Below are positions 3,600-9,507 of a stretch of 64,000 bases of DNA, one piece after another (the stretch's first letter is position 1; the number at the start of each line of letters is the position of its first letter). The stretch lies in contig NZ_CAESCM010000011.1 in assembly GCF_903166585.1 (NCBI RefSeq), positions 80,204 through 144,203 on the forward strand. Direction: 5' to 3'. Origin of the DNA: Pedobacter ghigonis. GTDB taxonomy: Bacteria; Bacteroidota; Bacteroidia; Sphingobacteriales; Sphingobacteriaceae. The notes beneath the pieces were generated by a model that worked only from the letters and a program-made list of their open reading frames with translations, had not been told where the DNA came from and did no database searches. The translations under genes were made by a program, and so were the position numbers.

Positions 3600-3840
3600 T
3601 TAAAACATTCTCCCGTTCATTGCCTCTGCTTCGGCATCCCTTTACCTGCCTCAACTAAATTTTTCCGAAAGGCAAAGATAAGCATTTTAGCCCCATCCTG
3701 GTTTGTAGCAATCACTTTGTTTATAAACCCGATAGGAATGGAAAGCCTCCGCTTTTTCAGCGGTGCTTGTAATGAAAAGCGGGACTACAAGCCGCCAGGT
3801 ACTGCTGCCCGCTCCTTTTCCAAAATAAAACGCCCATCTG
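3600..3840. other. Gene-free, structured intergenic segment
   Basis: This part of the 416-nt gap between rplU and the GLPGLI gene has no plausible ORF but contains nested hairpins. CCGCT (3749-3753) pairs with AGCGG (3759-3763), and GCTTGTA (3765-3771) pairs with TACAAGC (3786-3792) around a 14-nt loop. It is more GC-rich than the flanking promoter DNA. A TATCTTTG box read on the minus strand lies at 3680-3673. It may be a dispersed repeat or a structured RNA; the sequence alone does not decide. Confidence 0.4.
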
Positions 3841-3867
3841 TTAAAAAATGTTAAACACTAACCTTAT

Positions 3868-3894
3868 TACGAAAATTTCGTAGATTTACGAAAA
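3868..3894 (+). promoter_or_regulatory. Candidate BlaI-type operator before the GLPGLI gene
   Basis: TACGAAA-A-TTTCGTA (3868-3882) is a 7-bp inverted repeat. After 4 nt comes a third half-site, TACGAAAA (3887-3894). The same arrangement, TACGA-N5-TCGTA-N4-TACGAAAA, occurs right before the blaI-like gene at 9468-9494. It overlaps a TAGATTTA sequence that resembles a -7 box, as expected for a repressor site. Binding by the BlaI-like protein is inference. Confidence 0.65.
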
Positions 3895-3921
3895 TTAAAT
3901 AGACTATTAAACCCCAATACC

Positions 3922-4878
3922 ATGAAACTAATTTTAACTACCTGCATGGCTACGGCCATTTTTCTTTCGGCCAAGGCACAGGAAGCCGACAAAGCACTGG
4001 CCAGGGTGCGCTATACTTTTACACATGTGAGAGATACCACCCAAAGAGACAAACCTAAAGTGGAAAACATGTTGCTCGTAACCGGCAAAAATGCTTCGGT
4101 TTATACCAGTTACGATAAGCTGAACCAGGCGCTGAATATGCAAAAGCAGATACAGGAACAGATTAAAAACCAAACGAGCAACGGCAATATGAAAATCGAA
4201 ATAAAAAGCGAAATGAAAACCCCGCTTACCCAGGAAGATTATTTCTTTTTTGCCAGCGAACATAAAATGATTACGAAAGAGCGCCTGTTTAACAATTACC
4301 TGGTTGAAGAACCCGCAGCAGCCATCGATTGGAAAATTTTAAAAGATACGATGAGCTTTTCGGGAGTACCCTGCCAGAAAGCTACTGCACGTTTCAAAGG
4401 CCGTAACTGGATTGCCTGGTTTGCTACCGAAATTCCTTTCCAAAGCGGTCCGTGGAAATTAAATGGCCTACCCGGCTTAATTGTGGAAGCTTACGACGAT
4501 AAAAAGGAAGTGAAATTTGAGTTTGCAGGACTTGAAAATGTAAAAGATGCAGATGCTGCAGCCAACTCGGATGGTGATGTAAAAATAGCAGCTCCGAACG
4601 GCGGAGTAGGCGCAGTAAAAATTGTAGGTATAGATGTGAGTACCAGCTATCTTGGGCCAGAAATCAAATTGCCTACTGATGCGATAAAAACTACCCGCAA
4701 AGAGCTCGATAAACTTAAAGCTGCCCGGGATAAGGACCCACAAGGCTTTATGCAGGCACAAATGGCAGCAAGCGGTATGCAAGGCTCGTTCAGAACCAAC
4801 CAGGCACCTCGTCCGGCAGGTGCAGCGACAACTAAAGCAGAAGTAAACAACCCGATAGAAATTGAGGACAAAAAATGA
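3922..4878 (+). CDS. GLPGLI family secreted protein
   Basis: A 318-residue exported protein of the Bacteroidota GLPGLI family, whose function is not established. A signal peptide (MKLILTTCMATAIFLSAKA, cut near Q20) is followed by a beta-rich domain. The family signature GLPGLI is at residues 182-187, preceded by WIAWFATEIPFQSGPWKLN. The last ~50 residues are Ala/Gln/Pro-rich. The stop codon overlaps the next start (ATGA), so it is translationally coupled to the outer-membrane barrel gene, the usual partner of this family. The BlaI-type operator upstream suggests control by the repressor encoded at 9102-9464. Confidence 0.88.
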   Translation: MKLILTTCMATAIFLSAKAQEADKALARVRYTFTHVRDTTQRDKPKVENMLLVTGKNASVYTSYDKLNQALNMQKQIQEQIKNQTSNGNMKIEIKSEMKTPLTQEDYFFFASEHKMITKERLFNNYLVEEPAAAIDWKILKDTMSFSGVPCQKATARFKGRNWIAWFATEIPFQSGPWKLNGLPGLIVEAYDDKKEVKFEFAGLENVKDADAAANSDGDVKIAAPNGGVGAVKIVGIDVSTSYLGPEIKLPTDAIKTTRKELDKLKAARDKDPQGFMQAQMAASGMQGSFRTNQAPRPAGAATTKAEVNNPIEIEDKK

Positions 4879-7535
4879 GAAAGCTCGTATTAACCTGCTG
4901 GCTCATGCTGGCAGCTTTTTCGGTTTTTGCCCAGAAACCACTTAAAGGAATGGTAAAAGATGCCAGCGGCAAACCCGTCGAATCGGTTAACGTAACTTTA
5001 AAAGATGCAGAAGGCAATATCATTAACTTTGCGCGCACCAACAAAAATGGCGCTTTTAGTATTGAACTTAAAAACGACCAGATTACGGGTTACAAAATTG
5101 AAGCTTCGAGCATAGGCTTCAAAAAGCTGATTACCACAGTAACCGATGCTGCCAAAAGTTACGACCTGACTTTACAGCACAGCGAAACCACACTGGAAAC
5201 GGTTACGGTTAAAAACCGGCCATCTTTAACAGCCCGGGGCGATACCTTAAATTACCGCACTTCTGATTTTGCCGATAAGCAAGACCGAAGTATTGGCGAT
5301 GTGCTTAAAAAAATGCCTGGCGTAGAAGTTGCCGAGGATGGCAAAATCAGCTATAACGGAAAATCGATTTCGAACCTTTATGTGGATGGCGATAATTTGT
5401 TAGACGATAAATACAATATTGGCACTAAAAGTATCCCCCATGGCGCGGTTGATAAGGTACAGGTGATCCAAAACGACCAGCCCATTAAAATGATGCGCAA
5501 AAATAACATGAGTGATGATGTTGCCCTAAACCTCGTAATTAAAGACGAGGCGAAGCTCAAGGTAATGGGCGACGCTACGGTTGGCGCCGGTATGCCCAAT
5601 CGTTTTGACGAAAACCTTACGGCTATGCTGTTTAATAAAAAACTGAAGTTTATTAACAACATCAAGGGCAATAACATCGGAATTGATCCGGGTGGTGACC
5701 TTATTGCGCACAATTTCTCTGATTATTTAAAGAAACTGGATAACGACAAACCCAGCGGACTTCTTTCAACAGGTGCTGCCGGGGTACCATCGTTACCGCA
5801 AAGCAGATACCTTTTTAACAAAGCAGGACTCATCAACCTGAACAATTTATACAAGTTTAATCCCGACCTGCAGCTGAGGGCTAATATTTCGTATTTATAT
5901 GATCAGCGAAACCAGGAATACAGTAAATTTTCAGAAACTTATCTCCCCGATCAAACCATCCGTTATGCCGAAACGCAGCGCAATGCCATTAATCCCCAAA
6001 AGCTGAGGGCTCAGTTTAACTTAAACGGAAATGCCGATCAATACTACCTGAACAACAATCTGGTGGCGGAATATGCGCCTTTTAAAACCACCTCAGGTTT
6101 TGTAATTAACAATGTAGCAGCCAACCAGGTGCTTAAACAAGAAACCTTCGATTTGTCGAACGAATTTAATTACCGCAAAAAATTAAAATCGGAAGATGTG
6201 ATTAACCTCTACTCCTACCTAAACCGCACCACACAACCAGAAACATTAAACATTACACCTGGGCTTAATGCCGATATCTTAAACAATGGAAACAGCTATC
6301 TGGGTTTAACACAATACATTAAAATACCAACCTGGTACACCAACAATTATGCGTCTTTCGCTTTTGTGAAAAACAAGTTCGTACAAACCTATAAGGCAGG
6401 ATTTAATGTACAAAAACAGCAACTTAATTCAGAGCTCTACCGTACACAGAACAACCAGCAAACGGAGCCGGTTACAGGCAGTACAGTAAACGATTTGGAC
6501 TGGCTCAAAACCAAGCTCTATACCGAAGCAGGCTACGAATACACCAGCGATAAGCTAAAAGCAGGTTTAAGCTTGCCCTTAAGTTACAACCGGATCAATT
6601 ATAGCGATGCCCTAAATCAACTGGATAACAACCTGAACAAACTATTTATAAACCCGGCACTTAATATAAAATATCAAACCAGTACAGAAAACTATGTAAC
6701 AGCAAATTATAGTTTTAGAAACGACCTGGGCGGCATTAACGATGTTTATCGCGGCACCATATTAAAGAACTACCGTTCATTGTTTTCGAACGATGCACCA
6801 ATCGCTGAATCCAAAACCCATAACATTGGGGCTGGCTTTAATTTTAGAAAGGCCATGCAAATGTTGTTTACCAACTTAACGGCTAATTACAGCGACACCG
6901 AATTGAGTACCATTTCTGCCTATAACTTAAGCAACAACATCCAGCAGAAAATCGTACTGCCGCTAAATAACCATATCCGTAGCCTCTCGCTGGCCGCAAA
7001 TGCTAGCAAATACCTCTTTAGCTTAAAAAGCACGGTAAACGCAGGAGTAAGTTTTGCACAACGCCGGTACAGTCAGCTACAAAACAATGCATTGTTGCCG
7101 TTTAACACACAAACTATAGCCTATAAAGCTGGAATTGAAGCTAAACTTACAAACTTCATCAACTGGTCCTACAACGCTAATTTTGCCATTACCGATAATG
7201 AAGCGATGGTAACTAATGGAATAAAAACGAATTTTAAGCAATTGAGGCAGCAGTCGTCTTTAGCCATCACTACGATAAAAAATGTGTATTTAAATTTATC
7301 TGCAGAACACCTTTTTACCAGGCAATCTTCTCAGCCCGATTTGAAGTATCTTTTTGCCGATGCGAACATGCGCTACAAATGGTTAAAAATGAAAACTGAT
7401 ATTGAATTCGGGATAACCAACTTAACCAACATTAAAAGCTTTGATGCCATCTACCTCTCAGCAAACTCGCTGACTACCGGTACATATTACATCCCCGGAA
7501 GGGTGGCGATGCTAAAGGCTACGTTTAATTTTTAA
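4875..7535 (+). CDS. Outer-membrane beta-barrel protein with CarboxypepD_reg-like domain
   Basis: 886 residues. A signal peptide (MRKLVLTCWLMLAAFSVFA) is followed by a carboxypeptidase-regulatory-like beta-sandwich (about residues 22-110: LKGMVKDASGKPVESVNVTL). Next comes a plug-like region (LTARGDTLNYRTSDFADK, then DVLKKMPGVEV and SISNLYVDGDNLLDDKY) and a long barrel rich in alternating aromatic residues that ends in F-N-F, as barrels do. It resembles TonB-dependent transporters but lacks a clear TonB box. It is coupled to the upstream GLPGLI gene by a 4-nt overlap, so the two probably act together at the outer membrane. The substrate is unknown. Confidence 0.85.
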   Translation: MRKLVLTCWLMLAAFSVFAQKPLKGMVKDASGKPVESVNVTLKDAEGNIINFARTNKNGAFSIELKNDQITGYKIEASSIGFKKLITTVTDAAKSYDLTLQHSETTLETVTVKNRPSLTARGDTLNYRTSDFADKQDRSIGDVLKKMPGVEVAEDGKISYNGKSISNLYVDGDNLLDDKYNIGTKSIPHGAVDKVQVIQNDQPIKMMRKNNMSDDVALNLVIKDEAKLKVMGDATVGAGMPNRFDENLTAMLFNKKLKFINNIKGNNIGIDPGGDLIAHNFSDYLKKLDNDKPSGLLSTGAAGVPSLPQSRYLFNKAGLINLNNLYKFNPDLQLRANISYLYDQRNQEYSKFSETYLPDQTIRYAETQRNAINPQKLRAQFNLNGNADQYYLNNNLVAEYAPFKTTSGFVINNVAANQVLKQETFDLSNEFNYRKKLKSEDVINLYSYLNRTTQPETLNITPGLNADILNNGNSYLGLTQYIKIPTWYTNNYASFAFVKNKFVQTYKAGFNVQKQQLNSELYRTQNNQQTEPVTGSTVNDLDWLKTKLYTEAGYEYTSDKLKAGLSLPLSYNRINYSDALNQLDNNLNKLFINPALNIKYQTSTENYVTANYSFRNDLGGINDVYRGTILKNYRSLFSNDAPIAESKTHNIGAGFNFRKAMQMLFTNLTANYSDTELSTISAYNLSNNIQQKIVLPLNNHIRSLSLAANASKYLFSLKSTVNAGVSFAQRRYSQLQNNALLPFNTQTIAYKAGIEAKLTNFINWSYNANFAITDNEAMVTNGIKTNFKQLRQQSSLAITTIKNVYLNLSAEHLFTRQSSQPDLKYLFADANMRYKWLKMKTDIEFGITNLTNIKSFDAIYLSANSLTTGTYYIPGRVAMLKATFNF

Positions 7536-7548
7536 TAAATCAATTGCA

Positions 7549-7595
7549 AAAGTTGTCAACTTTCTGGCATCCTTGCTATTAAAGTTGACAACTTT
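7549..7595. terminator. Bidirectional terminator between convergent units
   Basis: AAAGTTGTCAACTTT (7549-7563) and AAAGTTGACAACTTT (7581-7595) are perfect reverse complements 17 nt apart, and each arm is itself nearly palindromic. The element lies between the barrel gene and the M56 gene, whose stop codon (7594-7596) it overlaps. It can fold on both strands. Confidence 0.75.
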
Positions 7596-9096
7596 AATTT
7601 ACCGAAGGCTTGGTATTAATCTGGATAAACTGCCCTTTTTGATCCACTTTCAGATCCATAATCATATTGGGATTCAATTTATCGAGCTCTGCTTTGCTCA
7701 CCTTATTTCCATTCAGATAATAACTCGTACTGCTAACCGACGATTCATTTGTCGCAGTTTTATCTTTTGAAATCTCGTTATTTCCTTTTGCATTGATAGT
7801 AGATTTCATAATAAAAACAGCAGTTACTTTTTTCCCTTTGGTATCAGCAGCATTTCCTAAGCCCATATTCGCCTGATCAGCCAACATAATCTGCTCAATT
7901 TTTTCGTTAGTTGGAACAGAATCGGTAAAAGTGAAATGTTTAACAAAGGTTCTTTTGCTCAGGTTGCCATCTGTTTTAAAATCGAATTTAACATGGCCAA
8001 CCATTTTTTTCATCATATCGCTTACCTGGTGTTGTGCCGAATCGCCCGCTTTATCTATCCGTTTAAAAACAAAAGTGAGTTTAGTGGCCGTATCTGTTTT
8101 TTTCATCAAAGGTAAGCCTGCTTTTCTCTTATTCCTGATCTTCGCACTGGTTTTCGCTTGCACAACAGGTTCAGCTTGCTTATGTGGAATTACGTTAACC
8201 ACCATTTTGGTTAAGGGAGCCAAACTTTTCCGGACCGCTTTCTTATCAATGGTAAAAGCCAGCGTAACGCACATTAAAACTGGCAATACCAGCATATAGC
8301 GGGTTAAATTCACCTTCGATGAGCGCTTTGCATTCATCATTTTAATTCGTTTTTTGAGATCAGAAAGGTTGAAATTATTAACAATAGCCACCGATGGCTG
8401 TAAAGTACCAACATCCAGTAAACTATATTGGTATGCCTTTTTATCAATTCCCTTTCTTAAAATGCGGGCATCGGTAATAAACTCAATATTTTCGCGCACA
8501 GCCTTTTTCATTAGCCAAACGCCGGGGTTAAACCAGTAAAAAACCACGCAAATTTCGGCCAGGATAATATCTAATGTATGCCACTGCTCTACATGTACTT
8601 TCTCGTGTGCCAGGATATTGGGCAGGTCTTCCTGCTTGTGCAGTCCCGGATTAATGTAAATGGTTTGCCAGAAACTGAAAGGACTCACCTCTTCACTCAA
8701 TATCCTTACCGGATACTGGTTTAAGCTATCGGGCGAAGAATTTTGATGCATGCGGTACAAGGAAATGAATTGCACCAGTAATCGCAGTGCCATTAAAACC
8801 ACACCTGCATAAAAAAGTATTGAAAGTATTTGCCAGATAAACGGTACAGCATTCTGTTTTACCAGCTGGCTTACCTGTTGGTTCAACTCAGGAACAAATG
8901 CAGGAACGGATTTACGGCCAGCCAAAAAACCGGTAAGGTTGATAAAAGGATATGCAGAAGAAAAAACGATACCAAACACCAGGAAAGCCCTGTTGAGCGA
9001 ATAAAACGTAAGCCTGCGCAATACCAGGTAATAGGTGGCCGAAAACAAAATCAGCACCAGGTTAATTTTCAATAAAATGAGAAAGAAATGTGGCAT
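7594..9096 (-). CDS. M56 family (BlaR1/MecR1-like) membrane metallopeptidase
   Basis: A 500-residue integral membrane zinc peptidase of the type that senses an outside signal and then cleaves or inactivates a BlaI/MecI repressor. Four N-terminal TM helices are visible (about 5-25, 36-58, 88-112, 180-196). The cytoplasmic protease motif HEKVH is at 164-168, with a downstream ENIEFITDA segment that supplies the third ligand region, and a fifth TM lies near 255-275. The ~220-residue C-terminal part is extracytoplasmic and lacks the penicillin-binding domain motifs of BlaR1, so the signal is probably not a beta-lactam. The gene starts 5 nt after the blaI-like stop and forms an operon with it. Confidence 0.88.
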   Translation of the reverse strand: MPHFFLILLKINLVLILFSATYYLVLRRLTFYSLNRAFLVFGIVFSSAYPFINLTGFLAGRKSVPAFVPELNQQVSQLVKQNAVPFIWQILSILFYAGVVLMALRLLVQFISLYRMHQNSSPDSLNQYPVRILSEEVSPFSFWQTIYINPGLHKQEDLPNILAHEKVHVEQWHTLDIILAEICVVFYWFNPGVWLMKKAVRENIEFITDARILRKGIDKKAYQYSLLDVGTLQPSVAIVNNFNLSDLKKRIKMMNAKRSSKVNLTRYMLVLPVLMCVTLAFTIDKKAVRKSLAPLTKMVVNVIPHKQAEPVVQAKTSAKIRNKRKAGLPLMKKTDTATKLTFVFKRIDKAGDSAQHQVSDMMKKMVGHVKFDFKTDGNLSKRTFVKHFTFTDSVPTNEKIEQIMLADQANMGLGNAADTKGKKVTAVFIMKSTINAKGNNEISKDKTATNESSVSSTSYYLNGNKVSKAELDKLNPNMIMDLKVDQKGQFIQINTKPSVN

Positions 9097-9101
9097 AGCC
9101 T

Positions 9102-9464
9102 TTACTTTTCAGGGTTCTCGATTAAATTTATAATCTCTTTAAGTTCTTCGGCACTGATCTTTTTATCCTTGGCAAAAAAAGCAACAAGCTCTTTATAGGA
9201 ACTTTGAAAATAATTATTAACAAAGCCACTCATAAAACGCTTTTTATATTCTACCTCTTTAACCTTTGCACTGTAACGGTTCGCATTGGCAAAACGCTCG
9301 CTTACCAGATAGCCTTTACGCTCCAGATTTTTGATTGTTGACGCCAGTGTAGTGTAAGGAGGTTTAGGTTCAGGAAGTACATCCATAAAATCTTTGATGA
9401 AGCCTTTCCCAATCTGCCACACAGCCAGCATCGCTTCTTCTTCCTGCAATGTTAATTTTTCCAT
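9102..9464 (-). CDS. BlaI/MecI/CopY-family transcriptional repressor
   Basis: A 120-residue winged-helix repressor. The N-terminal half (LTLQEEEAMLAVWQIGKGF, then PKPPYTTLASTIKNLERKGYL) matches the BlaI helix-turn-helix. The C-terminal half carries the dimer helices (FMSGFVNNYFQSSYKELVAFF) where the cognate M56 protease usually acts. I chose ATG 9464 over a start 14 codons upstream, because the longer form would run through the operator at 9468-9494 and lacks family similarity there. It is the first gene of the repressor-M56 operon and is probably autoregulated. It likely also controls the GLPGLI/barrel operon, which has the same operator. Confidence 0.9.
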   Translation of the reverse strand: MEKLTLQEEEAMLAVWQIGKGFIKDFMDVLPEPKPPYTTLASTIKNLERKGYLVSERFANANRYSAKVKEVEYKKRFMSGFVNNYFQSSYKELVAFFAKDKKISAEELKEIINLIENPEK

Positions 9465-9467
9465 ACT

Positions 9468-9494
9468 TACGAATATATCGTAAATATACGAAAA
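9468..9494 (-). promoter_or_regulatory. Candidate BlaI-type operator before the repressor gene
   Basis: TACGA-atata-TCGTA (9468-9482), then 4 nt, then TACGAAAA (9487-9494). Half-site sequence and spacing equal the site at 3868-3894. It ends 3 nt before the repressor ATG and overlaps the likely -7 region, so a bound repressor would block its own promoter. Confidence 0.65.
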
Positions 9495-9507
9495 CATCCT
9501 AAACAAA

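Follow-up and report, generated by a model that had tools for sequence, protein, structure and literature searches.

Two facing operons in the 64,000-nt stretch of DNA from the soil bacterium Pedobacter analysed here (the window) raise the question of what controls them together. One consists of a GLPGLI gene followed by a gene for a barrel-type protein, and the other of blaI followed by the gene for an M56 protease (Table 1). The promoter region of each carries a site with a common layout, TACGA-N5-TCGTA-N4-TACGAAAA, at 3868-3894 (operator 1) and 9468-9494 (operator 2). The initial annotation had pointed out this shared layout and its identical spacing, and both read in the sequence as it had described them.

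Table 1. Coordinates of the genes and putative regulatory elements of the locus, as positions in the window
Feature	Position	Strand	Basis
GTTAA-N5-GTTAA direct repeat upstream of operator 1	3840..3854	+	conserved in relatives
Operator 1, GLPGLI promoter	3868..3894	+	read in sequence; kept in relatives
Operator 1 half-sites	TACGA 3868-3872, TCGTA 3878-3882, TACGA 3887-3891	+	
-7-like box TAGATTTA, GLPGLI promoter (predicted)	3881..3888	+	read in sequence; spans 4-bp linker
GLPGLI family protein, 318 aa	3922..4878	+	TIGR01200, 160.2 bits, above the cut-off of 50
Receptor/barrel-type outer-membrane protein (predicted), 886 aa	4875..7535	+	CarboxypepD_reg PF13620, 42.1 bits
M56 membrane metalloprotease (BlaR1-like), 500 aa	7594..9096	-	PF05569, 48.4 bits, above the cut-off of 31
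BlaI-type repressor, 120 aa	9102..9464	-	PF03965, E 5e-24, 85.3 bits, above the cut-off of 22.6
Operator 2, BlaI promoter	9468..9501	-	read in sequence; kept in relatives
Operator 2 half-sites (+ strand letters)	TACGA 9468-9472, TCGTA 9478-9482, TACGA 9487-9491		
-7-like box TATATTTA, BlaI promoter (predicted)	9481..9488	-	read in sequence

The 120-aa repressor resembles the solved structures of MecI (E 4e-5) and Staphylococcus aureus BlaI (E 7e-5). In the facing operon, the start of the 886-aa protein gene overlaps the stop of the GLPGLI gene. The Pfam search matched no barrel domain in the 886-aa protein, and gave a plug-like stretch (Plug E 0.0021, 19 bits) below the Pfam cut-off of 23.9; we consider this protein a putative barrel. 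With Foldseek, the model of the GLPGLI protein (pLDDT 74) best matched PNGF-II-type PNGases in their N-terminal part (E ~1e-7, TM ~0.4), with weaker matches to LolA-type lipid carriers (E 0.003 or worse); we take these likenesses of a predicted model as a hint only.

Since the two operons face each other, the operator layouts are alike on the + strand only. Relative to transcription they are mirror images, the GLPGLI promoter lacking the downstream outer half-site and the BlaI promoter the upstream one. At operator 1, the position of this fourth half-site reads AAATA, and operator 2 has a degenerate near-fourth half-site TCCTA at 9497-9501 (+ strand letters). Operator 2 starts 3 bp upstream of the blaI ATG (9462-9464), which is conserved in relatives.

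Over the 5,921,534-bp genome, only operators 1 and 2 match the 24-bp triple TACGA-N5-TCGTA-N4-TACGA perfectly, while 0.015 perfect copies would be expected per genome from base composition. When up to two mismatches were allowed, we found six matches genome-wide (operators 1 and 2, one opposite-strand overlap of operator 2 and three elsewhere) versus 10 for a reversed control, so that these weaker matches carry no signal. Inside the window, up to three mismatches gave five matches, where 100 shuffles averaged 0.94. Single dyads TACGA-N5-TCGTA were considered as further targets and rejected: they occur at four places in the genome, two of them being operators 1 and 2, and the reversed control also gave four. 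The other two single dyads and the triples with two mismatches (L004-L006) were inspected and not counted as targets. The initial annotation had also predicted a closed regulon of two operons and four genes, and had named motif copies at unrelated sites as a sign against it; no other perfect site occurs genome-wide, and a closed four-gene regulon under BlaI/M56 is probable on these sequence grounds.

Then, we compared the locus with the best 80 of 199 loci carrying a BlaI homologue (58-99% identity) in a genome contig search, mostly from Pedobacter, but also from Mucilaginibacter, Pontibacter, Sphingobacterium, Bacteroides, Barnesiella and others. Among these 80 loci, an M56 match lies 3' of blaI in all 80, a GLPGLI gene is present in 51 (truncated at a contig end in one case) and a barrel gene in 52, one of which (L083) is a distant match elsewhere in the locus. 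We scored the best 34-mer in the 150 bp upstream of blaI, counting a half-site when at least four of its five letters agreed. Four half-sites were found in 40 of these loci, three in 34, two in five and one in one; at least three half-sites in one 34-mer were thus present in 74 of the 80 regions, against 0.05 of 80 in shuffled sequences. The L117 locus has no site within 150 bp of blaI and carries one 1.6 kb upstream. Likewise, the 50 GLPGLI genes with a start have four half-sites in four cases, three in 40, two in two and one in four, and in these last four (L070, L073, L076 and L086) the site precedes the first of two to three tandem GLPGLI genes. Loss of the motif in relatives that keep the gene order would have spoken against the initial proposal; we observed instead that motif and gene order are retained together.

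We also sampled the genus, searching 60 genomes for the repressor protein and 99 for the triple, with the co-occurrence table covering the 60 genomes common to both searches. The perfect triple was found in 53 of the 99 genomes (95 matches; two in the reversed control). It was present in all 33 genomes with a BlaI orthologue, called at E 3e-34 or better and split at contig ends in one case, compared to one of the 27 without (Fisher p ~4e-16, the related genomes not being independent). Among 30 triple loci examined (L001 and L127-L155), 29 adjoin a BlaI or GLPGLI gene. The remaining one, L128 (C22 near 52240), lies in G031, the sole genome having the triple without the orthologue, and turned out to be a deletion scar: it lacks the GLPGLI-barrel-M56-blaI block, and the genes that flank this block are brought together at a single hybrid operator, whose GTTAA element and left part are GLPGLI-promoter-like and whose right part is blaI-promoter-like. 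Recombination between the two operators, which are direct repeats, probably removed the block.

The initial annotation could not place a third half-site with fixed spacing in the BlaI/MecI family. In Mucilaginibacter, Pontibacter and Bacteroidales, the operators read TACGA-N5-TCGTA-N4-TRCGA-N5-TCGTA, so that the third half-site finds its place as part of a tandem of four. This distant operator spans 34 bp and is made of two 15-bp dyads whose centres lie 19 bp from each other, with the -7 box in the 4-bp linker. Four outlying relatives (L089, L093, L095 and L096) likewise have four half-sites at their GLPGLI promoters. Over 21 distinct distant sequences, the half-sites carry 1.7-2.0 bits per base, the spacers 0.6-0.7 and the flanks 0.3-0.4. 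At both promoters of the Pedobacter set, the half-sites reach ~1.9 bits and the adjoining spacers 0.7-1.3 bits. At the blaI promoter of Pedobacter and near relatives (51 distinct sequences), the upstream outer half-site has 0.54 bits and the 5' flank 0.40. The place of the lost downstream half-site at the GLPGLI promoter (44 distinct sequences) retains 1.12 bits, but with another sequence, and because it is conserved as such, it may serve a separate function. Judged by these alignments, the Pedobacter operator is a shortened tandem-dyad operator, each promoter having lost one outer half-site by decay, and the spread of four half-sites among relatives suggests that they were the ancestral state. 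In addition, at all seven sites that are down to two half-sites (five blaI, two GLPGLI), the remaining pair is the N5 dyad, which is therefore the likely binding unit.

By searching 395 genomes of the phylum for the exact four-half-site 34-mer pattern, we found it in 16 of them, at one place each, and nowhere in the reversed control. All 16 loci were examined. Fifteen of the sites adjoin the start of a BlaI homologue (51-72% identity), the sites including lineages without a GLPGLI operon in the locus, and the remaining one (L161) precedes a gene for a barrel-type protein with CarboxypepD_reg. When three mismatches were allowed in the same 16 genomes, 14 kept a single place; G444 showed one extra match with three mismatches, a level at which control matches occur in seven of the 16 genomes. 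Together with the co-occurrence of triple and orthologue, these data support, at the level of sequence comparison, the initial proposal of an operator shared by both promoters and read by the BlaI-like repressor. Separately, G350 (C64, C65 and C66) has six operator-like matches at four separate locations, one being the site before the barrel-type gene of L161, which points to a wider regulon in that lineage.

The genome holds six PF03965 genes, the paralogues being 36-41% identical to the 120-aa repressor, and an M56 homologue adjoins three of the five paralogue loci (tblastn). We compared 40 upstream regions of such paralogues in the genus (C8, C2 and C10 types; that of L225 has only 86 bases) with those of the orthologues (best 80 of 199). 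With up to one mismatch, AACTA-N6-TAGTT was found in 35 of the 40 paralogue regions and none of the 80 orthologue regions, whereas TACGA-N5-TCGTA was found in one and 79, respectively. In 15 of 20 C8-type regions, two AACTA dyads lie exactly 20 bp apart with a 4-bp linker (up to two mismatches). Thus, the tandem plan is common to at least one paralogue group while the half-site is not, which gives the third half-site a second parallel within the family. Upstream of the C8-type paralogues (L202-L221), there are often three AACTA-N6-TAGTT dyads, two of them 20 bp apart and the third a further 33 bp away. These systems resemble the one studied here in their PF03965 repressor, in the dyads upstream and, for the C8 type, in the tandem with a 4-bp linker, but they differ by the AACTA half-site and by dyads of 16 bp; the C8-type dyads would represent a distinct operator code within the genus.

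The overlap of each site with a -7-like sequence, also part of the initial annotation, was confirmed: both boxes span the linker, and such boxes recur in relatives. The linker holds a TAnnTTT-like box. At the GLPGLI sites it reads TAGATTTAC in 29 of 46; at the blaI sites it reads TATATTTAC in 44 of the 55 from Pedobacter and its near relatives, and TAGATTTGC or TAGATTTAC in nine of the 24 distant ones. A promoter role is predicted for the boxes of the GLPGLI and BlaI promoters. The promoter consensus of Bacteroidota consists of -33 and -7 elements. A TTG lies 18-21 nt upstream of the -7 box in 14 of the 24 distant blaI sites versus 2.45 in shuffles, and these sites appear to fit a -33/-7 promoter whose spacer holds one dyad, the other covering the start. 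No excess of TTG was seen at the blaI sites of Pedobacter and near relatives (10 of 55 versus 8.44 in shuffles), and only two of 46 GLPGLI sites have it. The promoter frame is therefore clear only in the distant relatives, and for the Pedobacter promoters the TTG counts do not support a -33 element at a fixed position.

Taken together, these data make it very probable that the sites are shared BlaI operators, shortened tandem dyads placed over -7 boxes, by which the blaI-M56 and GLPGLI-barrel operons would both be repressed. A chance likeness, or two copies of a short repeat without regulatory role, can practically be dismissed: the sites are indeed direct repeats on the + strand, and G031 has lost the block between them with one hybrid site left, but hardly any perfect copy is expected in a genome of this composition, the half-sites are far better conserved than their spacers at both Pedobacter promoters, and the position of the sites is tied to a -7-like box and a start codon. 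It is also very improbable that a different regulator of these promoters reads the sites and that BlaI is linked to them by neighbourhood only. The half-site could suggest so, being TACGA and not the TACA of the described BlaI, MecI and CopY proteins; however, the presence of the site tracks the BlaI orthologue over the 60 genomes, nearly all phylum sites adjoin a BlaI homologue, also in lineages without a GLPGLI operon in the locus, and paralogous BlaI genes are preceded by a dyad with a different half-site.

Somewhat less improbable, although still unlikely, is that three half-sites represent a binding mode of their own, either as a BlaI assembly requiring exactly three half-sites or as a dimer on the central TCGTA-N4-TACGA pair together with one monomer. 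In its favour, both promoters retain three half-sites at fixed spacing across ~50 distinct sequences, and the fourth place at the Pedobacter blaI promoter is close to its background. Yet four half-sites are present in distant relatives and at four GLPGLI promoters, the sites with two half-sites have kept the N5 dyad in every case and the N4 pair in none, and most C8-type paralogue regions show tandem dyads with the same 4-bp linker.

According to the shared-operator reading, one BlaI dimer would bind the 15-bp dyad TACGA-N5-TCGTA and, on the fuller operator, dimers on both dyads would lie across spacer, -7 box and start point, thereby blocking RNA polymerase. BlaI would in this way repress the blaI-M56 operon, which encodes it, as well as the GLPGLI-barrel operon on the facing side, the motif revealing no other target in the genome. 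Once triggered from the periplasmic side, the M56 protease would cut BlaI and both operons would be induced.

The GLPGLI operon may in addition respond to a second control. In 36 of the 46 relatives, the GTTAA-N5-GTTAA direct repeat starts 28 or 29 bp before the operator, and it is found at 36 places in the genome versus four in the reversed control, with 26 of 30 examined loci lying outside ORFs of at least 100 codons. The copies are mostly intergenic and often precede genes for exported or membrane proteins. In the available part of a DAP-seq study of Riemerella PhoP (PMC9603813), the most conserved letters of the motif are TTTAACA and GLPGLI genes are among the direct targets, which makes an OmpR/PhoP-type regulator a plausible reader of this repeat.

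For the M56 protease, 46 proteins were aligned. The M56 part is conserved up to about residue 285 and the periplasmic tail is not; within the HExxH motif (residues 164-168), H164, E165 and H168 are invariant in all 46. In the Pfam search, Peptidase_M56 was the only match of the 500-aa protease at E <=0.1, with no penicillin-binding domain, Plug or TonB_C. Among the 46 relatives, a TonB-receptor Plug (PF07715) was matched in 12 at E <=0.1, not all above the cut-off: those of L097 and L098 have E <1e-12 and that of L104 is under the cut-off. Of 10 more distant M56 proteins, six have TonB_C (PF03544) and six have Plug (one weak). Tails with TonB_C and/or Plug beside blaI were seen in L113, L115 and L119-L122 (Bacteroidales-type) and in L097, L098, L111, L112 and L114. 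The last 45 residues of the 500-aa protease follow the pattern NG...NPxxI...V...IxINTK and can be aligned by eye to the L097 and L098 plug tails. In its structural model (mean pLDDT 59, residues 303-455 under 50), the tail is predicted as two strands, a short helix and two strands (pLDDT 50-77).

The relatives thus suggest a TonB- or receptor-related signal for the M56 protease. We propose only tentatively, as an idea rather less likely to hold than to fail, that a phylum-wide Bacteroidota branch of BlaI-M56 systems has TonB_C and/or plug parts in place of the beta-lactam sensor and senses the state of TonB-dependent outer-membrane transport, with its output narrowed in Pedobacter to the single GLPGLI/barrel operon behind a shortened tandem operator. 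A jammed, empty or unplugged receptor would then be sensed through regulated proteolysis of BlaI. Surveys of TonB proteins reportedly mention BlaR1-like fusions. For TonB or plug sensors in proteins of the BlaR1 type, the matches listed by our literature searches included nothing relevant, and within the collection searched no paper mentions GLPGLI together with BlaI. Two leads were discarded: in the accessible part of a Bacteroidota BAM paper (PMC12578637), "M56" stands for reagent numbers (M5625) and no BlaI regulator appears, and PMC12204202 holds no BlaR, MecR or M56, "blai" being an author name.

For a repressor branch widespread in Bacteroidota, these observations provide an operator code that can be tested, with TACGA here and AACTA in paralogues, and they link a GLPGLI/barrel operon to a BlaI-M56 pair. 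The M56 relatives also point to outer-membrane TonB functions, and not to beta-lactams, as what these proteases may sense.

The BlaI-BlaR1 and MecI-MecR1 systems of S. aureus have, like this one, adjacent genes for a PF03965 repressor and an M56 protease as well as inverted-repeat operators. Here, in contrast, the half-site is TACGA and not TACA, no penicillin-binding sensor domain was found in the protease, and the target is a GLPGLI/barrel operon. The proteins also fall below the equivalog/exception cut-offs for BlaI, MecI and BlaR1: the repressor scores 23.8 and 24.4 bits against NCBIfam BlaI_of_MRSA and MecI_of_mecA (cut-offs 250), and the protease 38.1 bits against blaR1_generic (NF000326, cut-off 400). 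In S. aureus-type signalling, BlaR1 cuts BlaI between N101 and F102 (PMC9834060, available part).

CopY/CopR of copper export operons share the repressor family and the use of two operators. As described in the accessible part of PMC7253601, two operators lie upstream in 67 of 88 CopY promoters and have been proposed for BlaI by the same reasoning, so that more than two half-sites per promoter have precedents in the family. The same source reports no markedly higher affinity of CopY with two operators, which disfavours assuming cooperativity. CopY operators are 16-base, TACANNTGTA-centred and mostly 24-39 bases apart, whereas those described here are TACGA dyads of 15 bp, spaced 19 bp centre to centre, and the TACANNTGTA core was found in one of the 80 orthologue upstream regions (best 80 of 199). 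The repressor scores 30 bits against CopY_TcrY (TIGR02698), under the cut-off of 121.95. Unlike CopY/CopR, this system has an M56 partner and its repressor has no cysteine among its 120 residues, and hence no CxC metal motif. Finally, the BlaI_1845 and BlaI_0696 repressors of Clostridium thermocellum control, according to the available part of PMC8457756, small regulons made of their own operon with a BlaR1 gene and a few other genes. Although they belong to a different phylum and are likened by regulon and not by site letters, they resemble the Pedobacter system in that a small regulon includes the repressor's own operon.
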